NCBI GenBank assembly: GCA_003999685.1
Contig: CP021220.1
Coordinates: 1,798,001-1,862,000, forward strand
Length of the DNA stretch: 64,000 nucleotides
Origin: Taiwanofungus camphoratus
Lineage: Eukaryota; Basidiomycota; Agaricomycetes; Polyporales; Taiwanofungaceae
Direction of reading: 5' to 3'
The notes below the pieces were generated by a model. That model worked only from the letters and a program-made list of their open reading frames with translations. It had not been told where the DNA came from and ran no database searches. Positions 15,744 to 61,334 of this stretch are shown piece by piece. Numbering within the stretch: the stretch's first letter is position 1; every line of letters starts with the position of its first letter. The position numbers and the translations under genes were made by a program.

Positions 15744-18700
15744 TCAATCCATCTCCTCGATCTCTATGTCATCTAAATCATCGTAATCCACGTCCATGGT
15801 GTCCGCACTCGCTTCGTGGTTGGGTATGATCTGCAGGCGGTTGTGTGGCCCGTCGAAGCGTACTTTGACCGTCTCGCCGTCACGGATACGGTCCGAGAGG
15901 ATCATCATTGAGAGTGGATTCAACAACTCGCTTTGGATGGCGCGGTTAAGCGGCCGTGCACCATATACGGGCGAGTATCCACTGGACATGAGGAACTGCT
16001 TGGAGGCATCATCGAGGTCTAGCGTCATCTTCATGTCTGCCAGTCGTTCTTCGACTTCCTTCAGGCGAAGGTCGACAATCTTAAGAACGTTCTTCTCAGA
16101 TAGTGTGCGCTGGGTAAAACAACCGTTAGTCAAGTTCTCACAACTCAATACAGGTGCTGAAGTACTTACGAAGACGACGATCTCGTCAATCCGATTGATA
16201 AACTCTGGTGGAAAGTGACCACGAATAGCACCCATTACGAGCTCTCTCGTTTGGGCCTTTACAGGGCCGTCACCCATGTCGTTGAGATACGCCGCACCGA
16301 GATTGCTCGTCATGATGATCACCGTGTTTCTGAAATCGACTATGCGGCCTTGGCCATCAGTCAACCGACCGTCATCGAGGACTTGAAGGAAGAGCGTGAC
16401 AAATTCCCTCGAGGCTTTCTCGACTTCATCAATGAGGACGATAGAGTATGGCTTGCGACGAATGTATTCAGTCAGCTGGCCGCCAGCATCGTGGCCGACA
16501 TAGCCGGGAGGGGCACCAATAAGACGTGCGATCGAGTGCTTTTCCGAGTATTCTGACCCGTCAATACGAATCATAGCATCTGGCGAGTCGAATAGAAGCG
16601 TTGCGAGCTAAAGAGACAACAGTCAGAACATTCGTAATTCAGAACTAAGTCCAAGCAGACACTTACCGTCTTACTGAGCAACGTCTTACCGGTACCTGAA
16701 GGTCCAGCCATGAGGAAGCTAGCAATAGGTCTCTGAGCGTTCCTCAAGCCGCTCCTGCTCAGACGGATCGCATTTGCCACGGCCCTCACCGCCTCCGGCT
16801 GTCCAACCACCTGCTCGCCCAAGATCTTCTCCATCCTCAACAGCTTCTCCTTCTCCGTGCTCATCAGACGAGTAACAGGAATGTTCGTCCACCGCGCGAC
16901 GATCTCGGCAATTTGGTCGGGAGTGACGACGTCCGAGCCGCTGCCCATCGTCGCGTCCTCCTCCGCCTTCTTCGCCTCCAGCTGCACGAGACGGTTCTGC
17001 AGGTCGGGTAGCGCGTAGTAGCGCAGGTCCGACGCGGTCGCAAGGTCGTAGCGCCGCTCCGCCTCATCTGCCTTTGCCTTAAGCTCGTCGATCTTGCGGC
17101 GTACGTTCTGAATCTCGTCACCACGCGACTTCTCTGCTTCGTATGCGGCTTGGAGGGGTTGCAATTGGTCTTCGACATCGGCGATAGCTTTCCGGGCTTT
17201 CTCGAGACGCTCCTTAGACGCTTGGTCCTTCTCGCGCTCGAGTGCATGAATCTCAACTTCGAGCTCGAGCTTGCGCCGCCGGAGTTTGTCGATTGCTTCA
17301 GGGGCAGTTTCCCGTGTTACACGTACACTAAATGGGGGGAGAATTAGTATTTCTGAGAAGGAATTGAGGCTCAAACATTACGTACCTTGCGCATGCCTCG
17401 TCGACAAGATCGATCGCAGCATCGGGCAACCTTCTTGATGTCAAGTATCGGTGTGCTAATGTTGCGGCCTGGATGAGAGCACCATCCAAGATTTTCACAC
17501 CATGGTGCACTTCATACTTCTCCCGAATACCCCGCAAGATACTGATTGTCTCTGGCACACTGGGTTCATTAACGAGCACCTGCGCAAAACGCCGCTCGAG
17601 CGCCGCGTCCGTCTCGATGTACTTCCTGTATTCCGCAAGCGTCGTCGCACCAATACACCGCAACTTTCCCCGTGCCAGGAGAGGCTTGAAGAGATTTGCG
17701 GCGTCCATGCCGCCGCCTTCCGCGCCACGGCCGGCCATGATGAGATGGAGCTCGTCGATGAAAAGGATGACGCCTGCGCCTTCGTCCGACGCCTTCTCGA
17801 CCTCGTTGAGCACGGATTTTATGCGTTCCTCGTACTCGCCCTTGTACTTCGCGCCTGCCATGAGTGCGCCCATGTCAAGTGAATAGAGGCGGCCCAGGAG
17901 AGAAGCAGGCACGTCGCGGTTGATGATCCGCTGCGCAAGACCCTCTGCAATGGCGGACTTGCCGACACCCGGCTCTCCGATCAAGACCGGGTTGTTCTTT
18001 GTCCTATACGAACCAGTCAGTGTCATTTCGACGCTTGTAATACCCATTTGGGCTTACCTTCTGCAAAGGATACGAATTACTCTACGGATCTCATTGTCTC
18101 GACCTATGACAGGATCGAGTTTGCCTTCTTCGGCGAGCCCCGTCAAGTCGACCGCGTACTTCTGCAACGCGTCAAAGCCTTGCTCGGCATTCTTGCTCTC
18201 GACCCGCCTATTACCCCTGAGTTGATCGATAGCAGTCTTGAGGGCAGCCTCTGTCAGACCCGCTTCTCTCAAGACAGGAGTGATTGACGAGTCTTTGATG
18301 AGGGCAGCAAGAATGTGGTCCTGTGCGATGTAGGAATCGTGCATTGTCTTACGCAAAGACTCTGCCTCGCGGAGTACTTTGAGAGCGCCAGCGCTCAATG
18401 TGATTTCGTCTGGTGGTGGTGACTGGGCGGGCAAGCGGACAATGACTTTCTGGAGACCACGTTTCACAAGTGCCTACAGACCGCAATGAGTACGGTGATC
18501 AACTCGACTAGGTTGACTGACCCACTCACAGGGTCACCGCCAGCCCTCTGTATGACGGAGGTAAATAGAGAATGAGGTTGATGGCTAGCTCCTCCTGGGA
18601 GGCTTGGTTCACCAGAGGCTTCATTGAGTAGTACGAAACCGATGTGCGCAGGATGAACTGAGCAAGGTGGTCATGAGTATGCTACCCTCTATGGTGTATA

Positions 18701-18803
18701 TAACAAGACTCATACCTTGAGCGTTCGCATAATCCTTGGCAAGCTGGATTGCAGCGGTCAGGGACTCGTAGGTTTTGTCAGTGAAATTCATGTTTGCAGC
18801 CAT
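15744..18803 (-). CDS. hsp104: Hsp104/ClpB-type AAA+ protein disaggregase
   Basis: Seven exons (18803-18716, 18657-18530, 18473-18058, 18003-17386, 17327-16667, 16607-16170, 16109-15744) give 904 residues. Hsp104 is the cytosolic and nuclear hexameric ATPase that pulls proteins out of aggregates with Hsp70/Hsp40. An N-domain ([27 protein letters not shown]) is followed by NBD1 with Walker [15 protein letters not shown] and Walker [11 protein letters not shown], the coiled-coil middle domain ([19 protein letters not shown]), and NBD2 with Walker [14 protein letters not shown], Walker [11 protein letters not shown], the pore loop GYVG and arginine-finger region [11 protein letters not shown]. 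The acidic end [12 protein letters not shown] resembles the Hsp104 C-terminal co-chaperone tail. The N-domain and acidic tail favour cytosolic Hsp104 over mitochondrial Hsp78. Heat-shock-element cores lie upstream. Confidence 0.97.
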
Positions 18804-25819: not shown

Positions 25820-27134
25820 CTAATATGGAACCTCGTCAAACAACTTCGACACGCTCTCTCCATAGTGACTTCTCCGAATGACCTCCGCGAGCACATTTCC
25901 GACATCGACGACTTCGATCTTGCTGCACTTCGCCTGGTTCTCTTGTTGTGGAAGCGTGTTCGTTACGATGAGCTTCTCCAGGGCACTCTCCTCGATGGTC
26001 TTCAGCGCATTGCCGCTGAGAATCCCGTGGGTGACGAGCCCGTACACTTTCGTGGCCCCCGCCTCGGACAGGTGTTGTGCGGCGAGACACAACGTCCCGC
26101 ACGTGTCGGCCATGTCGTCAACGAGCACGGCAACCTTCCCCTTCACATGACCGACGAGGATCATACGCGAAACTTCATTAGCCTTTTTACGTTCTTTGTG
26201 GAACAGCGCGAAATCAACGCCTAACCGGTCGGCCATCGAGGTTGCTCTGGCTATCATCAGCGGGCGTTCCTCAACAGACAAGACAGCTCACCGCTTGGCC
26301 CCTCCTGCGTCCGGCGAGACGATAACGATGTTTGCGAGGTTGAAATTACTGCGGATGTACTGAATCGCAGAGGGCTCGGCGAAAAGCTGATGACAGGCAC
26401 GTGTGACGAACGTTTAACACATGAGATAGATGGGCGTTACTTACGCTGCAGAACGACGGACGTGAGTGATGGTGACATAGCGTTACGTCGGAAAGACGTA
26501 CTTGTCCACAGGGACGTCGAAGAAGCCCTGGATCTGGGATGCATGCAAGTCCATCGTCTGCTCACACGACAGGGACCAGACAGTGGATGCATCAGCCACA
26601 GACCGCAATATCGGAGGCGCTGGACACTCACGACGACGTGATCGCAGCCCGACTTCTGGATCATGTTTGCAACAAGCTTCGCCGTGATTGGGGCGCGGCT
26701 CTTGTCCTTCTTGTCCTGCCGCGCATATGGGTACAGAGGAACGACGGCCGTGATGCGCTTCGCGCTCGCAATCTTGCAGGCGTGGACCATAATGCACAGC
26801 TCCATGAGCGCGGTGTTGATCTGGCCGCAACCAGTGTTGATGATATAGACGTCGTCCTCGCGGACGGACTCTGCGATGCGCACACTGGTTTCGCCGATGC
26901 CGCTCTTCGTGACTTCTGCTTTGCTGAGTGTGAGACCGAGCCTGAGATCGACGTAATGGGAGTGTAAGTAGAGGTCTAAGATGCATAGCGATTGATACCG
27001 CACCGGCGGGCTATGATCTCAGCAAGCTCAGGGTGGCTGGTGCCTACGACAATGCAAGGATGTTCAGACCGATCCAAGCGATAAAAAGACATGTACACAC
27101 CAGTGAAAATTTTGATACCGTTACCGGTGAACAT
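25820..27134 (-). CDS. PRS: Ribose-phosphate pyrophosphokinase (PRPP synthetase)
   Basis: Seven exons (27134-27101, 27043-27004, 26941-26632, 26557-26502, 26445, 26386-26292, 26246-25820) give 963 nt, 320 residues. The enzyme makes PRPP from ribose 5-phosphate and ATP for purine, pyrimidine, His, Trp and NAD synthesis in the cytosol. Visible family motifs are [27 protein letters not shown], the ATP-binding loop [18 protein letters not shown], metal/ATP site [31 protein letters not shown] and the PRPP loop [13 protein letters not shown]. The invariant Asn of PVDNLFAEP is encoded only if a single-nucleotide exon at 26445 is spliced between AA (end of exon 4) and CTT (start of exon 6). The total length is a multiple of three only with it. 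Length equals yeast Prs3-type subunits. Confidence 0.95.
26445..26445 (-). other. Candidate one-nucleotide microexon of PRPP synthetase
   Basis: On the coding (minus) strand the region reads AA|GTACGT...TTCTGCAG|C|GTAAGT...CATCAG|CTTTTC. The two flanking introns are 56 nt (26446-26501) and 58 nt (26387-26444), both typical here. The single C completes AAC (Asn) and restores the conserved D-N-L frame. A single 115-nt intron would frameshift the enzyme. Confidence 0.75.
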
Positions 27135-29417: not shown

Positions 29418-32081
29418 TCATCTAGGTCCCATACCGTCCAAGACGCCGGATTGCATTGGGACCGCGCGAGGGGCGGTGCTAGGGGTGTTTAGGATAGATA
29501 ATAAATGAGCGTTGTTTGCGGAGCGCGATGCGTTGGCACGAGATGATAAATTGAAAGACGGAGAGAGCGCCGGTGCAGAGAGGGGGGGAGGCTCGCCATA
29601 TCGAGGTGTGGCAAGCTGCTGGGGAGGGATGACACGAAGTGGAGGTTGGCCCATGAGGCTATGCGGGATGGGCGCTGCATGCGGGGGGTTATGTGTAAGG
29701 CCTGTCGGAAGCGGTAGCTGGTGAGACTGCTCAAAAATACCCATTGCTTGAGGTTGAGTAGGTATACGGGACCCGGTGTCAATTCCGGGAATCATGAACC
29801 GCAATTGATCCTCAGTCAGGTTGAGTACCGCGTGAGACAGTTGAGAAGATGGATGGAATGCAGCGCTTGTGCGTGGTCGCACAGTGAACGGATCATCATA
29901 AGATGCGGCATCGAATGCGGGCATTTGGCGAGATGCAGGAGGACGTGCAAATAAAGTCGATGCCACAGGAGCGGATGAATATATGACTGGGGATTCGATA
30001 CGACCACCATACATAGACGACGGAGGCACGGACGCGGATGCACTGGGGAAGAGGGTCGACCTTTCTGCCATCTGCACCTGTGATGCTAGCATCGGCGATG
30101 CTCGTTGTTCTAGCCTTGATGACATCCTGTCTGACTCTTTAACAACATTCTCTAACATCGAGATATACCTCATCTCCTTTGGTATATCAGGGGGGCGTGA
30201 AAGGTAAGGAGAAATGTCTGCTGACACCCTCGAATTGCGACGACGATGTGATGCTCGTGCATAGGATTTGGTGGATGCAGTACTTGCGACTACAGCGTTA
30301 GGAGATGTGTTACAGACTGCAACGAAAGGTCCAGGCGACAATGAGGACTGATCAGCATGGGAAGGCCCAAGCTTGTTATGAGCATTGAAAGAGACAGGGG
30401 TTTGTTGGCGAGTATGCATCGAGAACGCGGTCGGAGGAAGAGGGAAATGTCCAGGAGATTGTGAGGGGAGAAATGAGGAAGGAGATGGACCCAAGGAAGT
30501 ACCAGGAACGCGCACAGACCAGTCACTTTGATCTACTTGACAATGAAGGGGAGCTTGTGTGGCTGATGTATTAGAAGAAGATGGCGATTGATGAGACATA
30601 GAGGAGCCCGAGGCGAGCTTTGACTTATTATTCACGTCCGTAGTGGAGGCGGAGGCAGATAATGAGAGTGAGTTGAGTAAGCGAGCGAAATGCGGATCAA
30701 CTCCATCCATATTAAGGAGCGATTCCACTCCTGTGATATTGTTATGAGTAGGGGCATCCTCACTTGTCTGTTGATTGACTCGTGCTGCACTGTACTGAGG
30801 TGAGGGCGTCTGTGGTTCGCCATTGTCCGCAGACGAAGATTGAGAGCTGGATTCTTGCGCAATATTATCATTGCTGATTATGGGGCATGAATCCATGATG
30901 CCACTGTCTTCTTCGCTTGAGATATGGGAATCGTGAATAGTCTGAGGTTGTCTATTCCCTCTGCGTGACAGGGTACGAGGTCTTCTGCCGTTTATGAAAG
31001 CTTTCAAAGGGCTAGAGATACAATCAGAATAGTAATTTTCGACCATAACTGGGCACCTACCCAATAAAAGGGGATATGAGATAGAATTTGCCTGGAACGG
31101 CTTTACTCCTCCTCCACGTCGGTAGATCAGACAACTTGAACCAAGCAATTTTCTGTAACAGAGACCCTCAGTATTTTTCAGAAAAACAGGCTAGAAAGCT
31201 TACACTGATCTCCTTCCGGGTTCTTGTCTTGAAAGGGAAATCTTCCGGAATTCCGGGTACAATATACAATGAAATGGACTGCTCCTTGATAGACAATTCA
31301 ATTACATCTTCTGGAACAATTTGCCCATCCAAATCATAGCCAGTCTCTTCTAGGACCTTAGAAAGAGTTGTCAGGGTATGACAATGGTGTTAACGAAGTG
31401 CATTACTAACCTCTCGCACAGCACAACGAGGACGCGGCTCCTGTTCGTTGATCTTCCCTTTCGGAAAACCCCAGCCAGCCGATGATTTCCAACCCTTCAC
31501 AAGAACACACTGACAAGATGGGTCGGACAGTCAGACGACCGGGACATCAAGTTCCCAACAAGCAGACGACAGACCTTCTCCCACGTGTCGTTGAGCATGA
31601 TAGCACCACACACAGGGACCCTTGTCTTGTATTGCATGAATGTTTCAAATGCTCTCTCATGATCATGAGCCCAATGATGTAACGGCGGACATGCCCGGAA
31701 TAGAGCCTCCGAGAATGTCTTAAGGGAGTAGGAAGGGAATTTGGCCGGATTTTGTTCTCGAATAAAATCCTCATAGTACCAATGTCTGAGTGAGGTCCTT
31801 TCAGTCAATGAAGAAGCAGGACCGCAACAGAATACTAACGCCTGTTCAACTTGAAAGCAAACGCGTTCGAGAGAGGCGAGTTCTTCTTCCGGTAGATTGA
31901 GAATAAAACGGCTGCAGACAGGTCAATAACGTCGCACAAGCTGGATCCATTATGTCTACAACCTTGAGAGTTCCTCGAGCACTTCCTCCCGGCTGAGGTG
32001 GGCGTATTGTACGGACGATTGTTGCGATCCTGTTACAGGAGCAGCTGAAATTTCAGGAGATGATGATGATGATGAAGCCAT
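29418..32081 (-). CDS. DCP2: mRNA decapping enzyme subunit Dcp2
   Basis: Seven exons (32081-31963, 31911-31840, 31785-31575, 31509-31411, 31356-31204, 31152-31061, 31011-29418) give 779 residues. Dcp2 hydrolyses the m7G cap in cytoplasmic 5'-3' mRNA decay with Dcp1. The N-terminal regulatory domain (VLEELSRFILNLPEEEL, AHWYYEDFIREQNP) binds Dcp1. The Nudix fold follows, with VPVCGAIMLNDTWEKCVLVK, and the Nudix box spread over GWGFPKGKINEQE and CAVREVLEETGYDLDG, containing the REVLEETG catalytic glutamates. Box B-like sequence is PLKAFINGRRPRTLS. The C-terminal 500 residues are Ser/Pro-rich and low complexity, as in other fungal Dcp2 tails that bind Edc3/Pat1. The start ATG at 32081 is followed by a serine run. 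Confidence 0.95.
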
Positions 32082-39751: not shown

Positions 39752-40723
<972 letters not shown>

Positions 40724-47586: not shown

Positions 47587-50500
47587 TCACCAGAATCCAT
47601 CATCAGCATCACCTCCACCCTTCTTCCTTGCCCCTTTACTTTGGGCAAGTACTTGTCGTTCGTACATCTCTGCTATCTATACGTAATTGTCATCAAGGGC
47701 CTTCATGAGAGAACAGTGCGCGATGCTCACTTGTTCAGGGCCCGTGGCGTCATCGGCAGATTTGTCGTCTCGGATTCTGATGAACCGAGGGAAACGCAAC
47801 GATATACCTCTTTCATCTACCTGCGGATCGCTGTGTGAGTATGCAATCAGTGTTCAGTCATATACGGATACTCACCAGTCCTTGCGCTGCAGTATATATC
47901 GGACTCAAACTCAAATCAGCAGTGAGCACTTCCCACACAACCTTTGGGTCGAACCAGACATCTGGTTTTGCACCTCCGACCTTGACGTCTCCCCGAACAT
48001 TCGCCATCTCGAGCGGCTTGAGCGCCTCATAGTGCGACTGCAATGCTTCCTCACTGAATCCCGTACCAATCTTGCAAATGGTCTGATACTCTTCCGAGTC
48101 CGCATCGTAGCAAGCGAGAAGGAAGGCGCCGTATACGTTCGTGCGCTTGCCTTTTCCGTAGTATCCGCCTACCACGACTAGATCCAGCGAGTCGCCGACA
48201 CCCGCTAGATAGTCCTTCTTGATCTAAAGTGTCATAAAGTATAGGCTTATCTGGTCATATCAGTTGACAGATGGCATACCTTGAGCCAGTTCACACTTCT
48301 CCGGCTAGGCTCGTAGAAACTGGAGTCGCCCTCCAGCATTTTGACCATGAGACCCTCGCAGCCGTCTTTGACACTTTCTTCTAGGAAGGCCTGGATCTCT
48401 TCTGTTGTCTCAGCATCTGATGCTTTCGCGAAGTCGAATTCCCCTGGCACTTGTTGGAAGTTTTCTCTCAATAGCTGCCTTCGTTCTGTAAGGGACTTAT
48501 GGAGCAGCGGCTGATAATGACATGGAAGCATCAATGTCGAATGAATGGATACCTGAGGACATGTGATACGAACTTCACCGTTTAGGTAGAGCAGATCGAA
48601 TGCAAACAGGCAGACCCGGACTTGGATGTCTTCCACTTTGACGTCTTTCCGCTTCCTCCTGCTCAGTTCCTGGAATGGCATCAATTTACCATTGTCCTTG
48701 TCAATAGCTACTGCCTCCGCATCCAGGACGAATGACTTCGTACTCTCTTTGATACACTGGAAGAAGTATATTTCCTTCGTCACGGGGTTCTTTCAGGTAT
48801 CGGGCGCAAACTCACGTGTGGGAGTTGCTCCATCAAGTCAGGGTACTTTTTGCTCATGTCTTCGGAATTTCTGCTGAATACGCCGACTGTGGCGTCCTCT
48901 AGCTTATGCACCTGCACGAAAGTTCCAATAATGTCAAACACAGTTGTTTCAACTAGACTGAAGTCATACCTGTGCCCGCTCACCATCGTACTTGTACTCG
49001 CAAGTAAACCTCTTGTCCTCAAACCGATCGAGGACTTCGCCGATTGCCTTGGTAGGTTTCGCAAGCATGGGCTTCAGCGGAACCCCCGGCGTAAGCTTGC
49101 ACCTCTCGCGAAGCTTAGCAATGCCGACCTCCAGAAGAGCGGGTACTACGAGGTCGTACGTAGGTAGCTCACTGGCGGGGATATGAGTATCGTATTAATG
49201 TCCGGTTCAAGTTAGGCAATGGGAGTGTACCTGTAGACTGATTTGATAATATTTGCGCTCTCTTCCAGTCGAGTAGTCAGGTTTTCCATGTTCAGCTTCT
49301 TGTTCACTTTCAACGAACCACCTCTTCAGCGACCGTACACTTCGGTAAAAGAAAACTGACGCTCACAGCGTTCCTGTTCCGCAAGAACGGATGCATGAGC
49401 GAGGGCAACGAGTACGGTGCGCTCCGCGTTACCTATCCTCAGCTTACCCTCCAGACTTCGGATAATGTACTTCGCTTCTGCTCCCTGACACGCGGCAAGT
49501 AGTTTCGTGATGATGGAGACCTTCTTGTTTTGTGACTTTCAAGATAATAGTATGATGTCAAATGGTCATCCGTCGGCAATGTTATATGGCCGTTTCGACT
49601 CACTGAGTGACCGGTACTTAAAGCAATTTCCTTCAGATGCGTGAAGACAAAAGGGACTGTGAGTGGTTTGGGCTTGAAAATAGTCTTTTGGCTGTTCTTC
49701 GAGTTCTTGAATGGCCCGATCTCTAATCAGCCCGCCTTGAAACACTGGTACCCATGCGAGACTGACCATCGCTACAAGACCCAGGTCGCCCTCTTTCTTC
49801 AGATCAGACTTGATGACTGCGAGGCTTCTACCAGTGGATTCTCCAATTGCTTTGATTAGCAAGCTCTCGCCAATCCCAAGCTCGATGCCAACATAATCCG
49901 GACTCAGCTAGAAAGGTCAATGAGATTGATGTACGGGACTCGAAGCATATGACTGCCCTACACGGTTGATGCAGAGGTAAACAGCCTGCAGGAGGGATTT
50001 GCTATCCCCTTCAGTACTCCGCCGGATAACCAACAGGAAAAAAGCAGTTAGTAGGGACGTCTTCTCAATTCTTTTAGTGGTTGCTTCAATTAGCGAGAAC
50101 ACTTTTGCCAGAGCGGCATACGGGACACTGAAATACGTCATTACTGAGACCTCTTGATTGGACAACATCGGAAGCGAGAACATACGGGTCACCAACTTTC
50201 CAGCCACCCTTGATGTCGACTTCCGCTGTTCGTGAGAGCGCCGCTTCGGCGCTGAGACAGAGTCAGTATGCACCTTATAGTACGTGTATTTCTCACATGC
50301 TTTTGTGAAGCTACGCCTTCTTCTTCTTCTTCTTCCAACTCCTCTTCTGGGTCTTCTCCTTCTCCGCCTTCGTTACCGCCATCTGACGTCGTAGCCTCCT
50401 CCTTATCAAGAGCGCCTTTGGGGGCCAAGCTTAAATTTTTCTTGGATTTCGATTTCGCAGATTTAGTCCCGATGACAGCTTCCATTGGCGAGTCTTTAGC

Positions 50501-51122
50501 ATTAGGATTAGAAGGCTTCTTGCTACGTCTTGTGCTCGAAGCTTCGGGCTCAGCACCGACAGCCTTGGATGTCGAGGGTTGATCATCGACAATGCGATCT
50601 TGTTAAAACGCATTCGTGAGAGTGTTCAACGTCGCCAATAAAATAAAAGCTCACCAGCTGCGGCGCTATCATCATCCGAGTCAATAATCCTGCGTTTCTT
50701 CGGTTTCGGCAGTACTTCTAATGTTGTCGCAGAGCACAAAGTCAAGATAGAGTGTGAGTCTAGTAGAATATGCTTTACTATTTGTATCAGCTGGCGACTG
50801 CTTCCGCTTGGGAGCACTTTCCTCTGGGCCAAATGATCAGTGTCACGTCTGAAGGTGCTGCCGTATGCACGCACCTGACTTTACATCATCCTCGCCAACA
50901 GACACACATCGGTTGAGTAAGGGAGAGATATCTGGGACCGTGGGGGACTCCTTCGCTGCCGCCTTCTTCCTCTTACCTCCCCACATCTCCTCGAGCTTGG
51001 ATTGCTGTGGAGGCGCTGCTTTGACTCCAGAGGGCATCTCAAAGAATTTGCCTGACAGAGGTCACTTGTCGTATAATCAAAGCATACGCTGTTGACTCAC
51101 CGAGAGTTTGTTGACGACCCAT
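47587..51122 (-). CDS. CDC9: ATP-dependent DNA ligase I (Cdc9/LIG1)
   Basis: Eighteen exons from 51122 (last exon 47676-47587) sum to 2583 nt, 860 residues. It seals Okazaki-fragment and repair nicks. The N-terminus [13 protein letters not shown] carries a PCNA-binding PIP box (QTLGKFF). An NLS-like KPKKRR and an acidic low-complexity segment follow. The DNA-binding domain includes [20 protein letters not shown] and [20 protein letters not shown]. The adenylation motif is [10 protein letters not shown] (Lys nucleophile), then [37 protein letters not shown] and [12 protein letters not shown]; the end is [10 protein letters not shown]...GFW. Intron 50252-50300 needs a GC donor to keep frame. 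An in-frame ATG at 51206 adds 28 residues (MPVTVTIRVAQLQPRLKPVS...), basic and without acidic residues, resembling the mitochondrial leader of yeast Cdc9. Confidence 0.95.
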
Positions 51123-51206
51123 GCGAATGCTGTATGGACGTATGAAGCTGACGGGTTTCAGACGCGGTTGCAGCTGCGCGACGCGTATCGTGACTGTGAC
51201 AGGCAT

Positions 51207-55908: not shown

Positions 55909-57618
55909 ATGGGTCAGCAACAATCCAAGAAGACCAGGAAGAGTGGAAAGGACAGAGATAAGGAGGGGAGTGCGGATTCCGTCACCCTCACCGACGCTGC
56001 TGGCAGTGACACCAACGACAACACGCTGCAAAGCAGTCTCTCCCGCTCAACAGCACCAGACATCGTAAACTCCAGTAACACAGCAAATGGCGCCGTTGCA
56101 GGTACATCAACCGGAGGCAACCCAGCAATAAGCATCACTCAGCCGGAAGGTGATGCACTATTGTTAAATGGACATGCTTCACGACCTCCTCCCGGCTCCG
56201 ACGCCCCTGGATCTCCAAACTCGAGTTCCTCGATGAAGGATATTCAATCTGTCCCTTCTAATCCATCAACATCGCCTTCTGCATCCCCATCATTAACCAC
56301 TAAGCCACCCCCTCTTGATATCCCTGTCACCCAAACCATCCTATCAAATGCTCATTCTCCTACACCGTATCCTACACCAGGATCTACTAATAGCTTTAGT
56401 GTTGGTGACCCTGCCAGTTTTCCAGGCGGAGGCAAGAACGGAGGCGGCCTGAAGCAAGCCGACATCGATGATATGATTCAACGACTGTTGGACGTAGGCT
56501 ACACAGGCAAGGTTAGCAAGTCCCTGTGTCTCAAGAATGCCGAAATTGTCGCTATATGTCTGGCGGCCAGAGAAGTATTTCTGAGCCAGCCTACCCTCAT
56601 CGAGCTATCGCCACCTGTCAAGATAGTCGGTGACGTTCATGGGCAGTACTCTGACCTCATCCGTCTATTCGAGATGTGTGGTTTCCCACCCGCCGCCAAT
56701 TATCTTTTCCTCGGTGATTATGTGGATAGAGGAAAGCAGAGCCTTGAGACCATCTTACTTCTCCTATGTTACAAAATCAAGTATCCCGAGAACTTCTTCC
56801 TGCTGCGAGGCAATCACGAATGCGCCAATGTCACGCGAGGTACGTGGTGCTTCCTTGGCGTTTCAACTTTAGCTTATGATATGCAGTATATGGCTTCTAC
56901 GACGAATGCAAAAGGCGATGTAATATCAAGACTTGGAAGACATTCATCGACGTCTTCAATTCTTTACCCATTGCCGCCATCGTCGCATCGAAGATATTCT
57001 GTGTTCATGGTGGTCTTTCTCCATCTTTGCATTCTATGGACGACATCAAGCGCATACAACGACCTACAGATGTACCTGACTATGGTCTTCTAAACGACCT
57101 GCTTTGGTCGGATCCATCGGACACAGCAGCAGATTGGGAAGACAACGAGCGAGGGGTCAGTTATTGCTTTGGCAAGTCAATCATAAATGACTTCTTGGTG
57201 CGGTACGACATGGATCTAATATGCCGTGCGCATATGGTTGTTGAGGATGGGTATGAGTTCTGGAATGACAGAACACTTGTTACTGTTTTCAGCGCACCCA
57301 ACTATTGCGGAGGTGAGAACGCCTTGACGTGGTGTCGAAAGTATATACTCACGTTGTTTCCAGAGTTCGACAACTACGGAGCATGCATGAGGTTTGGTTA
57401 CGCTTGCATTGAGCCAAGTCCATGCTAACAGAAGCCCATTATTATAGCGTTTCGGAAGAGCTCTTGTGTGCTTTCGAACTTCTCAAACCCTTGGACGGCC
57501 CTGCTTTACGAAAAGAGATGACAAAGGCGAAACGGAAGACGTACGTTACATATCATTGATGTGGGGCATGGTGCTAATAGACGTCATCACTCTCAGGATA
57601 ATGGCTACTACTACCTGA
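55909..57618 (+). CDS. PPZ1: PPZ-type serine/threonine protein phosphatase
   Basis: Five exons (55909-56839, 56887-57312, 57364-57391, 57448-57540, 57597-57618) give 499 residues. The catalytic half has PP1-class signatures: [91 protein letters not shown] and [18 protein letters not shown]. The disordered Ser/Thr-rich N-terminal half before [20 protein letters not shown] and the start MGQQQSKK are typical of PPZ phosphatases, which regulate cation balance and cell integrity. The Gly-2 context fits N-myristoylation. Starting at 55909 rather than reading upstream preserves that signal. The last exon adds only a few residues (TIMATTT), and an alternative acceptor at 57580 would give a longer, less likely tail. 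Confidence 0.92.
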
Positions 57619-60324: not shown

Positions 60325-61019
60325 TCAACGAGTCCACATCTGGAATTCATACTTCACATTGTTTTCTTCCTGTATCCCTTCCGGCACCTCGAAACCTGCC
60401 CATTCCTGCAACTCCTCATGCGATGCTCTACGCCACTGCAAGGACCTGTTCTCCGAGTTCCCTAGTGCTTGAAAATCTGGCATGTACACGTCGCACTGTT
60501 CGAAAGCTGGGGAGATTATCCGCGTAAGAAGTATTCGATCAACGAATGCATGTGCGAATTCTGGAAGCGACAGAGTTTCGCGGTAGAGTGAAGCACCACC
60601 TATAATAAAGGACCGATGTACAGGTGCTTCTAGCCATTTCGGTTGCGACAGTCTTTCCAATGCAGAGTCCAAATTTGAATGCAGATAGATGGGCGCCACT
60701 GGTGTTGCGGCATTCGACGGCATTCTAGCAAAGAGTCAATTCAGCAGTGCGAACGCCTGCCAATCTGCACGGCATACAACTCATACTGCTTGTTGCTACT
60801 GATCACAACGTTGATACGCTTTGGGAGTGGCCTGAATTTCTTCGGGATGCTCTCCCATGTATTTCGGCCCATGAGCACCGCGTTCATGCTGCCTTCCGGG
60901 GCGTTCGAGGTGATGCGCGCAAAATATGCTATTTCCCTTGCGAGTCGCCATGGCAGTCGCGAATCTTGTCCAATGCCGTTCGTGAGGGTCGCAGCGACGA
61001 TTATTGTCAGACGAGACAT
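60325..61019 (-). CDS. DFR1: Dihydrofolate reductase
   Basis: Two exons (61019-60778, 60724-60325) give 213 residues, typical for fungal DHFR. It reduces dihydrofolate to tetrahydrofolate with NADPH for thymidylate and purine synthesis. Visible signatures are MSRLTIIVAATLTNGIGQDS, RLPWRLAREIAYFARIT, the NADPH-binding NAVLMGRNTWESIPKKFRPL, PKRINVVISSN, HRSFIIGGASLYRETLSLPE and ILLTRIISPAFEQCDVYMPD. The acidic active-site residue is expected in the PWRLAREI helix (Glu). The ATG at 61019 matches the family start; the frame is open upstream but contains no ATG before the stop. Confidence 0.97.
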
Positions 61020-61334
61020 ATCGCCTGACTTTTCGAAGACGGTGAGGGATGGAGGCTCTTCATCGGCACCGCTGGCGCCAATCGCGTTCTGGCTCGGAGT
61101 TTGAGCAACGTCATCGGAAGAATTCGATGTTGGTTTGAATATATTCACTGCCTCTAAGTCTTGTTACCCTTGCTGGACATAATATGTTCGTTCGGAATGT
61201 ACATATGTTGACGTTGTAAGCGATCAACACGAATGATGTATACAAGAAAGCTCGAGGTTCTCAAAGATTACATGACTTTGACAAACAGTTGGGCAAACTC
61301 TCAGTCAACTCGTTCCATCCATTTCCTTCGGCGC

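Follow-up and report, generated by a model that had tools for sequence, protein, structure and literature searches.

A class I PRPP synthetase (ribose-phosphate diphosphokinase) gene lies on the minus strand of the window, by which we mean the whole 64,000-nucleotide stretch of Taiwanofungus camphoratus DNA that was analysed. Its coding sequence is interrupted after the second base of an asparagine codon by 115 nt that begin with GT, end with AG and hold, mid-way, a further AG and GT separated by a single C. The locus thus raises the question of whether the transcript loses these 115 nt as one intron, or as two introns that leave an exon of one nucleotide between them. From the sequence, the reading frame, the quality of the splice sites and the fit of the predicted protein we infer, with a probability of about 0.85, that the transcript of a normal PRPP synthetase is spliced at two ordinary short GT-AG introns, 56 and 58 nt long, on either side of the one-nucleotide exon C.

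The PRPP synthetase gene and its reading frame

The gene is intact, runs from 27134 to 25820 and is predicted to comprise seven exons (Table 1), with a coding sequence of 963 nt including the stop codon and a product of 320 amino acids. The predicted protein falls within class I PRPP synthetases, scoring 365.7 bits against the NCBIfam model TIGR01251 (cut-off 113) over residues 7-316, and its best PDB match by phmmer is Ribose-phosphate pyrophosphokinase 1 (PRPS1; 447.9 bits, query residues 6-319), which we take to be the human enzyme. A start at ATG 27134 followed by a 57-nt intron 1 (27100-27044) restores the segment IKIFTGTSH, and the PRPS1 match begins at query residue 6 and chain residue 3. 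An alternative start at 27092, with a coding sequence of 978 nt, was rejected as wrong at the N-terminus, where the ATG 27134 model instead gives IKIFTGTSH.

On the minus strand the order is GTGGACAA/GTACGT...CTGCAG (26501-26446)/C (26445)/GTAAGT...CATCAG (26444-26387)/CTTTTCGCC, with exactly one nucleotide, C26445, between CTGCAG and GTAAGT. The frame reads GGC TTC TTC GAC GTC CCT GTG GAC AA on the 5' side of the junction and CTT TTC GCC GAG CCC on the 3' side. Removal of the 56- and 58-nt introns around C26445 would give the mRNA GAC AA-C CTT TTC and the protein segment PVDNLFAEP (computed junction GTGGACAACCTTTTCGCC), whereas taking out the entire 115 nt as a single intron would leave 962 nt, a frameshift and a stop at codon 187 (computed junction GTGGACAACTTTTCGCC). 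Because complete removal breaks the frame, one nucleotide must remain if the genomic sequence is right, and C26445 is needed for the conserved protein of 320 amino acids. In the computed transcripts, the frame ends at codon 153 if intron A is retained and at codon 180 if intron B is.

An earlier sequence-only reading of this DNA had placed the paired introns at 26387-26501 with the C between them, and its junctions and coordinates agree with the sequence. It had further held that the 115 nt read as one intron would shift the frame of the enzyme, and that two introns around the C restore the Asn of the family motif PVDNLxAEP in a coding sequence of exactly 963 nt; these points stand as well, the last of them with ATG 27134 and the 57-nt intron 1.

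Table 1. Predicted exons and introns of the PRPP synthetase gene in transcript order (positions in the window)
Feature	Position	Strand	Length	Sequence features and basis
exon 1	27101..27134	-	34 nt	ATG; gene finder (both runs); PDB match from query residue 6
intron 1	27044..27100	-	57 nt	GTGTGT..TCGTAG; gene finder and enumeration
exon 2	27004..27043	-	40 nt	gene finder and enumeration
intron 2	26942..27003	-	62 nt	
exon 3	26632..26941	-	310 nt	homology to PRPS
intron 3	26558..26631	-	74 nt	
exon 4	26502..26557	-	56 nt	3' end GTGGACAA (VD and first two bases of Asn)
intron A (intron 4)	26446..26501	-	56 nt	GTACGT..CTGCAG; best branch-site match CTCAC, 17 nt from 3' end
exon 5	26445..26445	-	1 nt	single C, third base of Asn147 (AAC); aligned with Asn144 of PRPS1
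intron B (intron 5)	26387..26444	-	58 nt	GTAAGT..CATCAG; best branch-site match CTCAT, 35 nt from 3' end
exon 6	26292..26386	-	95 nt	5' start CTTTTCGCCGAGCCC (LFAEP)
intron 6	26247..26291	-	45 nt	GTGAGC..AGCCAG
exon 7	25820..26246	-	427 nt	stop TAG; homology to PRPS

Splice signals, intron length and chance

Splice-site quality was judged against a reference set of 41 introns of 45-81 nt, selected from the window's better gene models, out of 107 introns called in the first run of a purpose-written Viterbi gene finder that was trained on the window. One 67-nt call in the PPZ gene was excluded (reducing the set from 42 to 41), as homology shows it to be coding, and from the ligase and NIPA-like gene models the introns alone were taken. 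On this scale donor A (GTACGT) scores 8.12 bits, the 61st percentile and equal to the median, and donor B (GTAAGT) 9.03 bits, the 76th percentile, while the acceptors of introns A and B score 6.97 bits (83rd percentile) and 6.04 bits (61st percentile). All four sites stand at or above the median of the selected introns, in line with the strong splice signals on every side that had been claimed for the locus, and 56 and 58 nt are typical intron lengths. Two features speak against the one-nucleotide exon: the branch-site match of intron B is more distant from its acceptor than in 37 of the 41 introns, and the base just before donor B is C, where G is usual.

The chance of finding such an arrangement was estimated after the arrangement had been noticed, counting as decent a micro-exon whose splice scores are decent on either side and whose halves measure 45-81 nt. 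Mononucleotide shuffling of intron interiors yielded a decent AG-[C/T]-GT micro-exon in 0.19% of cases (n=200,000) and dinucleotide shuffling of the interior of the 115-nt stretch in 0.55% (n=40,000); the observed scores were reached in 0.002% of the former and in none of the latter. With no demand on the scores, AG-[C/T]-GT appeared in 4.7% (mononucleotide) and 7.9% (dinucleotide) of the shuffles. Among the 15 real 115-nt GT..AG stretches of the window that have decent ends, a decent micro-exon occurs in one, and scores as high as those observed also occur in one; the PRPP synthetase locus has every property that this count demanded.

Introns longer than 81 nt are absent from the 41 selected introns and make up 25 of the 107 called in the first gene-finder run and 6 of the 59 in 12 other gene models, all six of which belong to the ligase, kinase and DHFR models and are calls that we regard as doubtful. 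Since 25/107 and 6/59 introns exceed 81 nt, and the selected set flatters the comparison, intron length is no strong argument for the one-nucleotide exon. The second gene-finder run even calls an intron of 115 nt (50874-50760) close to the 5' end of the ligase gene; an intron of this length is unusual in the window, not impossible.

These counts bear on the main rival reading, an assembly or sequencing error in which a base is missing at an exon edge (for example, CAG/CCTTTTC read as CAG/CTTTTC) and the 115 nt are one ordinary intron. A deletion of one base gives the identical frameshift, the base needed is a C beside another C, and the six longer introns of the 12 other models show that lengths above 81 nt are predicted in the window. 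A 115-nt intron of this kind would, however, need to hold CTGCAG/C/GTAAGT mid-way by chance, for which the frequency of a decent AG[C/T]GT in the shuffles (0.19-0.55%) is the relevant figure. Long single exons that stay open, for example in the kinase gene (2,018 nt) and the phosphatase gene (931 nt), also suggest that indels are not frequent, a weak argument given that the gene finder avoids stops. Taken together, we consider an error of this kind unlikely.

Other genes were modelled in the window. A ClpB/Hsp104-type disaggregase gene with seven predicted exons occupies 15744-18803 on the minus strand, and its product looks cytosolic (Hsp104-like) rather than mitochondrial, judged from the predicted protein start. 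A DNA ligase I gene with 16 or 17 predicted exons lies at 47677-51206 on the minus strand; the borders of its end exons differ between the two gene-finder runs, an 11-nt exon (47876-47886) being predicted in the first run only and the 115-nt intron in the second only. Genes for a DCP2-like protein (Pfam box A; 31057-31922, minus strand), an isopentenyl-diphosphate isomerase (39806-40554, plus strand), a PP1/PPZ-type phosphatase (55909-57428, plus strand) and a dihydrofolate reductase (60325-61163, minus strand) are each split by introns in their models. Scans of the 64,000 nt for tRNA and Rfam families found nothing. By themselves, the density and shortness of the introns and the genes present suggest an intron-rich fungus, probably a basidiomycete.

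Other in-frame splicings and the conserved asparagine

The first run of the gene finder, which was also the source of the 41 introns, picked the one-nucleotide exon unaided. Because the seed of its coding model held the PRS coding sequence, a second run was made with the background, five seed genes (five of six having passed a stop-codon filter) and the 41 introns, none of which comes from the PRPP synthetase gene. With that gene left out of training, the one-nucleotide exon was again picked, at 46.19 nats versus 41.0 for the next-best path. The second run predicts 61 internal exons on both strands, two of which are 15 nt or shorter, namely the one-nucleotide exon and a 3-nt exon antisense to the ClpB gene.

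We enumerated all ways of removing one or two introns of at least 30 nt with GT-AG, GC-AG or AT-AC termini in the region that runs from the first base of exon 4 to the GAG codon of FAEP, with 96 candidate introns. The reading frame stays open in 160 arrangements, seven of them single-intron, and four arrangements, a single-intron option among them, retain both of the anchors GFFDVPVD and FAEP. Only the one-nucleotide exon among these four gives the PVDNLxAEP spacing of the five PRPS alignments shown. The other three are a 111-nt intron with donor GTCTTT and two arrangements with GCCCAT as a GC donor, its score being -5.41 bits on a matrix built from GT donors; non-canonical termini could yield PVDKLFAEP.

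The four proteins that follow from the leading arrangements were compared by score. On the best PDB hit the protein with the one-nucleotide exon scores 447.9 bits, the version with Lys in place of Asn 445.2, the version with a Lys-Tyr insertion 439.8 and that of a 34-nt exon 431.2 (phmmer); the corresponding scores on NCBIfam NF002320 are 388.9, 387.3, 381.4 and 380.9 bits. The protein with the one-nucleotide exon is top-scoring for 30 of the 31 matched PDB sequences, the exception being chain 4twb, on which the Lys and 34-nt-exon proteins both score slightly above it. The Lys protein is 0.2-0.4 bits higher in three of the 13 NCBIfam models listed (NF002844, NF002618 and NF002758), and the 34-nt-exon protein is 0.6 bits higher in NF001815.

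A single 114-nt intron with a border other than GT-AG (GT-CA or TA-AG, one G being ambiguous) would encode the Lys version, PVDKLFAEP, in frame and with a nearly equal protein, the margin of the one-nucleotide exon on the best PDB hit being only 2.7 bits. This reading needs a non-canonical terminus though GT and AG are one base away, and it puts Lys in place of an Asn that is reported, in the available part of PMC5395218, to be strictly conserved in eukaryotic enzymes. With so small a margin in protein score, the missing GT-AG border is what counts against the Lys version, and we hold it to be extremely improbable.

The single 111-nt intron (26497-26387; computed junction AAGTACCTTTTC) has canonical GT-AG borders, is in frame and keeps both anchors, and the length of the loop varies in distant relatives such as the viral locus L001. 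It would nevertheless encode PVDKYLFAEP, with one extra residue and no Asn, from a donor of -0.9 bits that lies under all 41 introns (minimum 1.13) and has the strong GTACGT 4 nt upstream, and its protein is 8.1 bits lower on the best PDB hit, so that such splicing is scarcely credible.

In the next-best path of the gene finder, C26445 opens a 34-nt exon (26445-26412) that is followed by a 52-nt intron (26411-26360), again with canonical sites and in frame. This path is 5.2 nats worse, its protein is 16.7 bits worse on the best PDB hit, and it makes an intron of DNA encoding LFAEPSAIQ, which matches the LYAEP segment of PRPS, thereby erasing the motif; we give it next to no weight. A stwintron, a nested twin intron of which both parts are excised with nothing left between them, would share with this locus the removal of two adjoining short introns in turn, as described in the available text of PMC5639578, but loss of the whole 115 nt gives the 962-nt form that stops at codon 187, which makes it highly implausible here.

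By enumeration, gene finder and protein scores, then, no better in-frame splicing was found, the Lys version coming close in protein score without a GT-AG border, and the one-nucleotide exon is the best-supported model of the predicted gene among the tests run. The sequence-only reading had presented the exon as apparently required; it is upheld as the best in-frame model, although that reading had missed in-frame rivals (the seven single-intron options, the path with the 34-nt exon and the non-GT-AG Lys version).

The residue that C26445 completes, Asn147, aligns with residue 144 of PRPS1. As far as the available part of PMC5395218 goes, Asn144 is one of the residues of the allosteric site that eukaryotic enzymes strictly conserve, and in Mycobacterium smegmatis it is replaced by His. 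A search of PMC9232217 for the Asn residue returned no mention of it, and D143 is the only such residue mentioned in the available part of PMC10227994. Of 18 bacterial or viral loci fetched, 17 were aligned, and in these the equivalent of Asn144 is N in five, D in four and Y in eight; in the two viral loci an alignment gap falls just before this position. The claim that the Asn is invariant thus stands for eukaryotes as reported (PMC5395218) and fails for the family as a whole.

The bacterial and viral relatives came from viral-contig and prokaryote-genome collections and were found with the longer protein that starts at 27092 as the query, one of the six scan patterns (EHPCIVVG) falling in intron 1. 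Two IMG/VR contigs (L001:457-1209 and L002:1093-1845) carry a PRPP synthetase in which the loop that follows the conserved PV has a different spacing (FFNIPVIHMEGKYLFAE). Eleven loci (L005-L007 and L009-L016) have NDAIGGFF or a similar sequence in place of the QIQGFF of others, with Tyr or Asn where PRPS1 has Asn144; ten of them are labelled Patescibacteria or groups such as Parcubacteria, Kaiserbacteria and Nomurabacteria, and one is labelled just bacterium. When viral contigs were scanned a second time, with the C-terminal exon as query, a single locus came up, 43% identical over query residues 32-81.

Intron removal, origin and known one-nucleotide exons

Introns A and B each have their own donor, branch-site-like motif and acceptor, and each could be recognised across the intron. 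The pairing of U1 snRNA with a donor covers approximately three bases on the exon side, which at donor B are AGC and overlap the AG of intron A. Because U1 pairing at donor B would cover the AG of intron A, the two introns could hardly be engaged at once and would be removed one after the other; we infer that sequential removal by intron definition, in either order, is most likely. Removal of intron A first would create the intermediate AAC/GTAAGT, and removal of intron B first the intermediate CTGCAG/CCTTTTC; in both cases the joined mRNA would restore the Asn of the eukaryotic allosteric site.

With regard to origin, a recent tandem duplication is unlikely because introns A and B do not resemble each other: their alignment score of -2.0 is equalled or exceeded by 35% of 2,000 shuffles and by 26% of 468 other intron pairs. 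A second intron may have been gained beside an existing one, or a cryptic AG-N-GT may have been adopted after the loss of an exon base, the latter by analogy with what is suggested for CYP621A in the available text of PMC12940212; both are possible.

Skipping the exon or retaining either intron would truncate the enzyme (at codons 187, 153 and 180, respectively), and on this ground the exon might be read as a metabolic switch, in which the efficiency of splicing governs how much PRPP synthetase is made and the pair of introns is conserved in the lineage for that purpose; we regard this reading as decidedly doubtful. Programmed -1 frameshifting over the skipped form was set aside, as no slippery heptamer was seen by eye at A CAA CTT TTC.

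If the predicted splicing is true, a one-nucleotide exon in an enzyme that is widely needed and presumably well expressed would lend itself better to study than one in a rarely expressed Fusarium P450, and the locus could serve as a natural substrate for determining the order in which abutting introns are removed. Here a conserved enzyme would be mis-called by any gene predictor that sets a lower limit on exon length.

Among the titles listed for the open-licence literature searched, none deals with a one-nucleotide exon in PRPP synthetase. The sequence-only reading had described single-nucleotide exons as extremely rare and named that of plant APC11; APC11 is indeed published, and VPS55 and 20 Fusarium orthologues of CYP621A had been left out. 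Short exons have also been described in a basidiomycete, down to 6 bp in P450 genes of Phanerochaete (PMC1184071, available part).

The closest likeness is to Fusarium CYP621A, as described in the available text of PMC12940212, whose authors call it the first single-nucleotide exon of a fungal gene and find it in 20 orthologues, with 18 RNA reads from two species. Both are fungal nuclear genes with one nucleotide between AG and GT that keeps a conserved motif in frame, and in both the combined stretch is roughly double the length of a normal intron (for F. graminearum, 139 nt against a median intron of 56). The CYP621A exon, however, is a G at the second position of a Gly codon and belongs to a P450 that is seldom expressed, whereas that of PRPP synthetase is a C, the predicted third base of an Asn codon in a housekeeping enzyme.

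Among plants, Arabidopsis APC11 likewise has a one-nucleotide exon required for the frame, there constitutive, and the mechanism offered by the sequence-only reading, in which each intron is defined separately or the two are removed in order, is close to the one proposed for it, namely intron definition with stepwise removal; in contrast to our case, the APC11 exon is an A, lies in what was formerly annotated as a 422-nt intron and was proven by cDNA and GFP constructs (PMC4674806, in the part available). In plant VPS55 a one-nucleotide exon is followed at once by a conserved GTRAGT donor, as it is here by GTAAGT. The available text of PMC8831610 describes the VPS55 microexon as well conserved in flowering and some other land plants and as supported by RNA-seq and RT-PCR, and adds that inclusion and intron retention both occur in some lineages. 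It also notes, of APC11, that an aligner failed to place reads unless the one-base exon was supplied in the annotation.

Two further systems share part of the arrangement. In placozoan mitochondrial cox1 a single C between two introns also forms an exon that completes a conserved codon, but those introns are mitochondrial group I introns rather than spliceosomal ones (PMC5436844, available text). Stwintrons likewise involve two adjoining short U2 introns in fungi and consecutive removal reactions, but there one intron sits inside a splice motif of the other, and not a single exon nucleotide remains (PMC5639578, as far as available). One-nucleotide exons having already been published for APC11, VPS55 and CYP621A, the PRPP synthetase case would be a rare further example, not new in kind.
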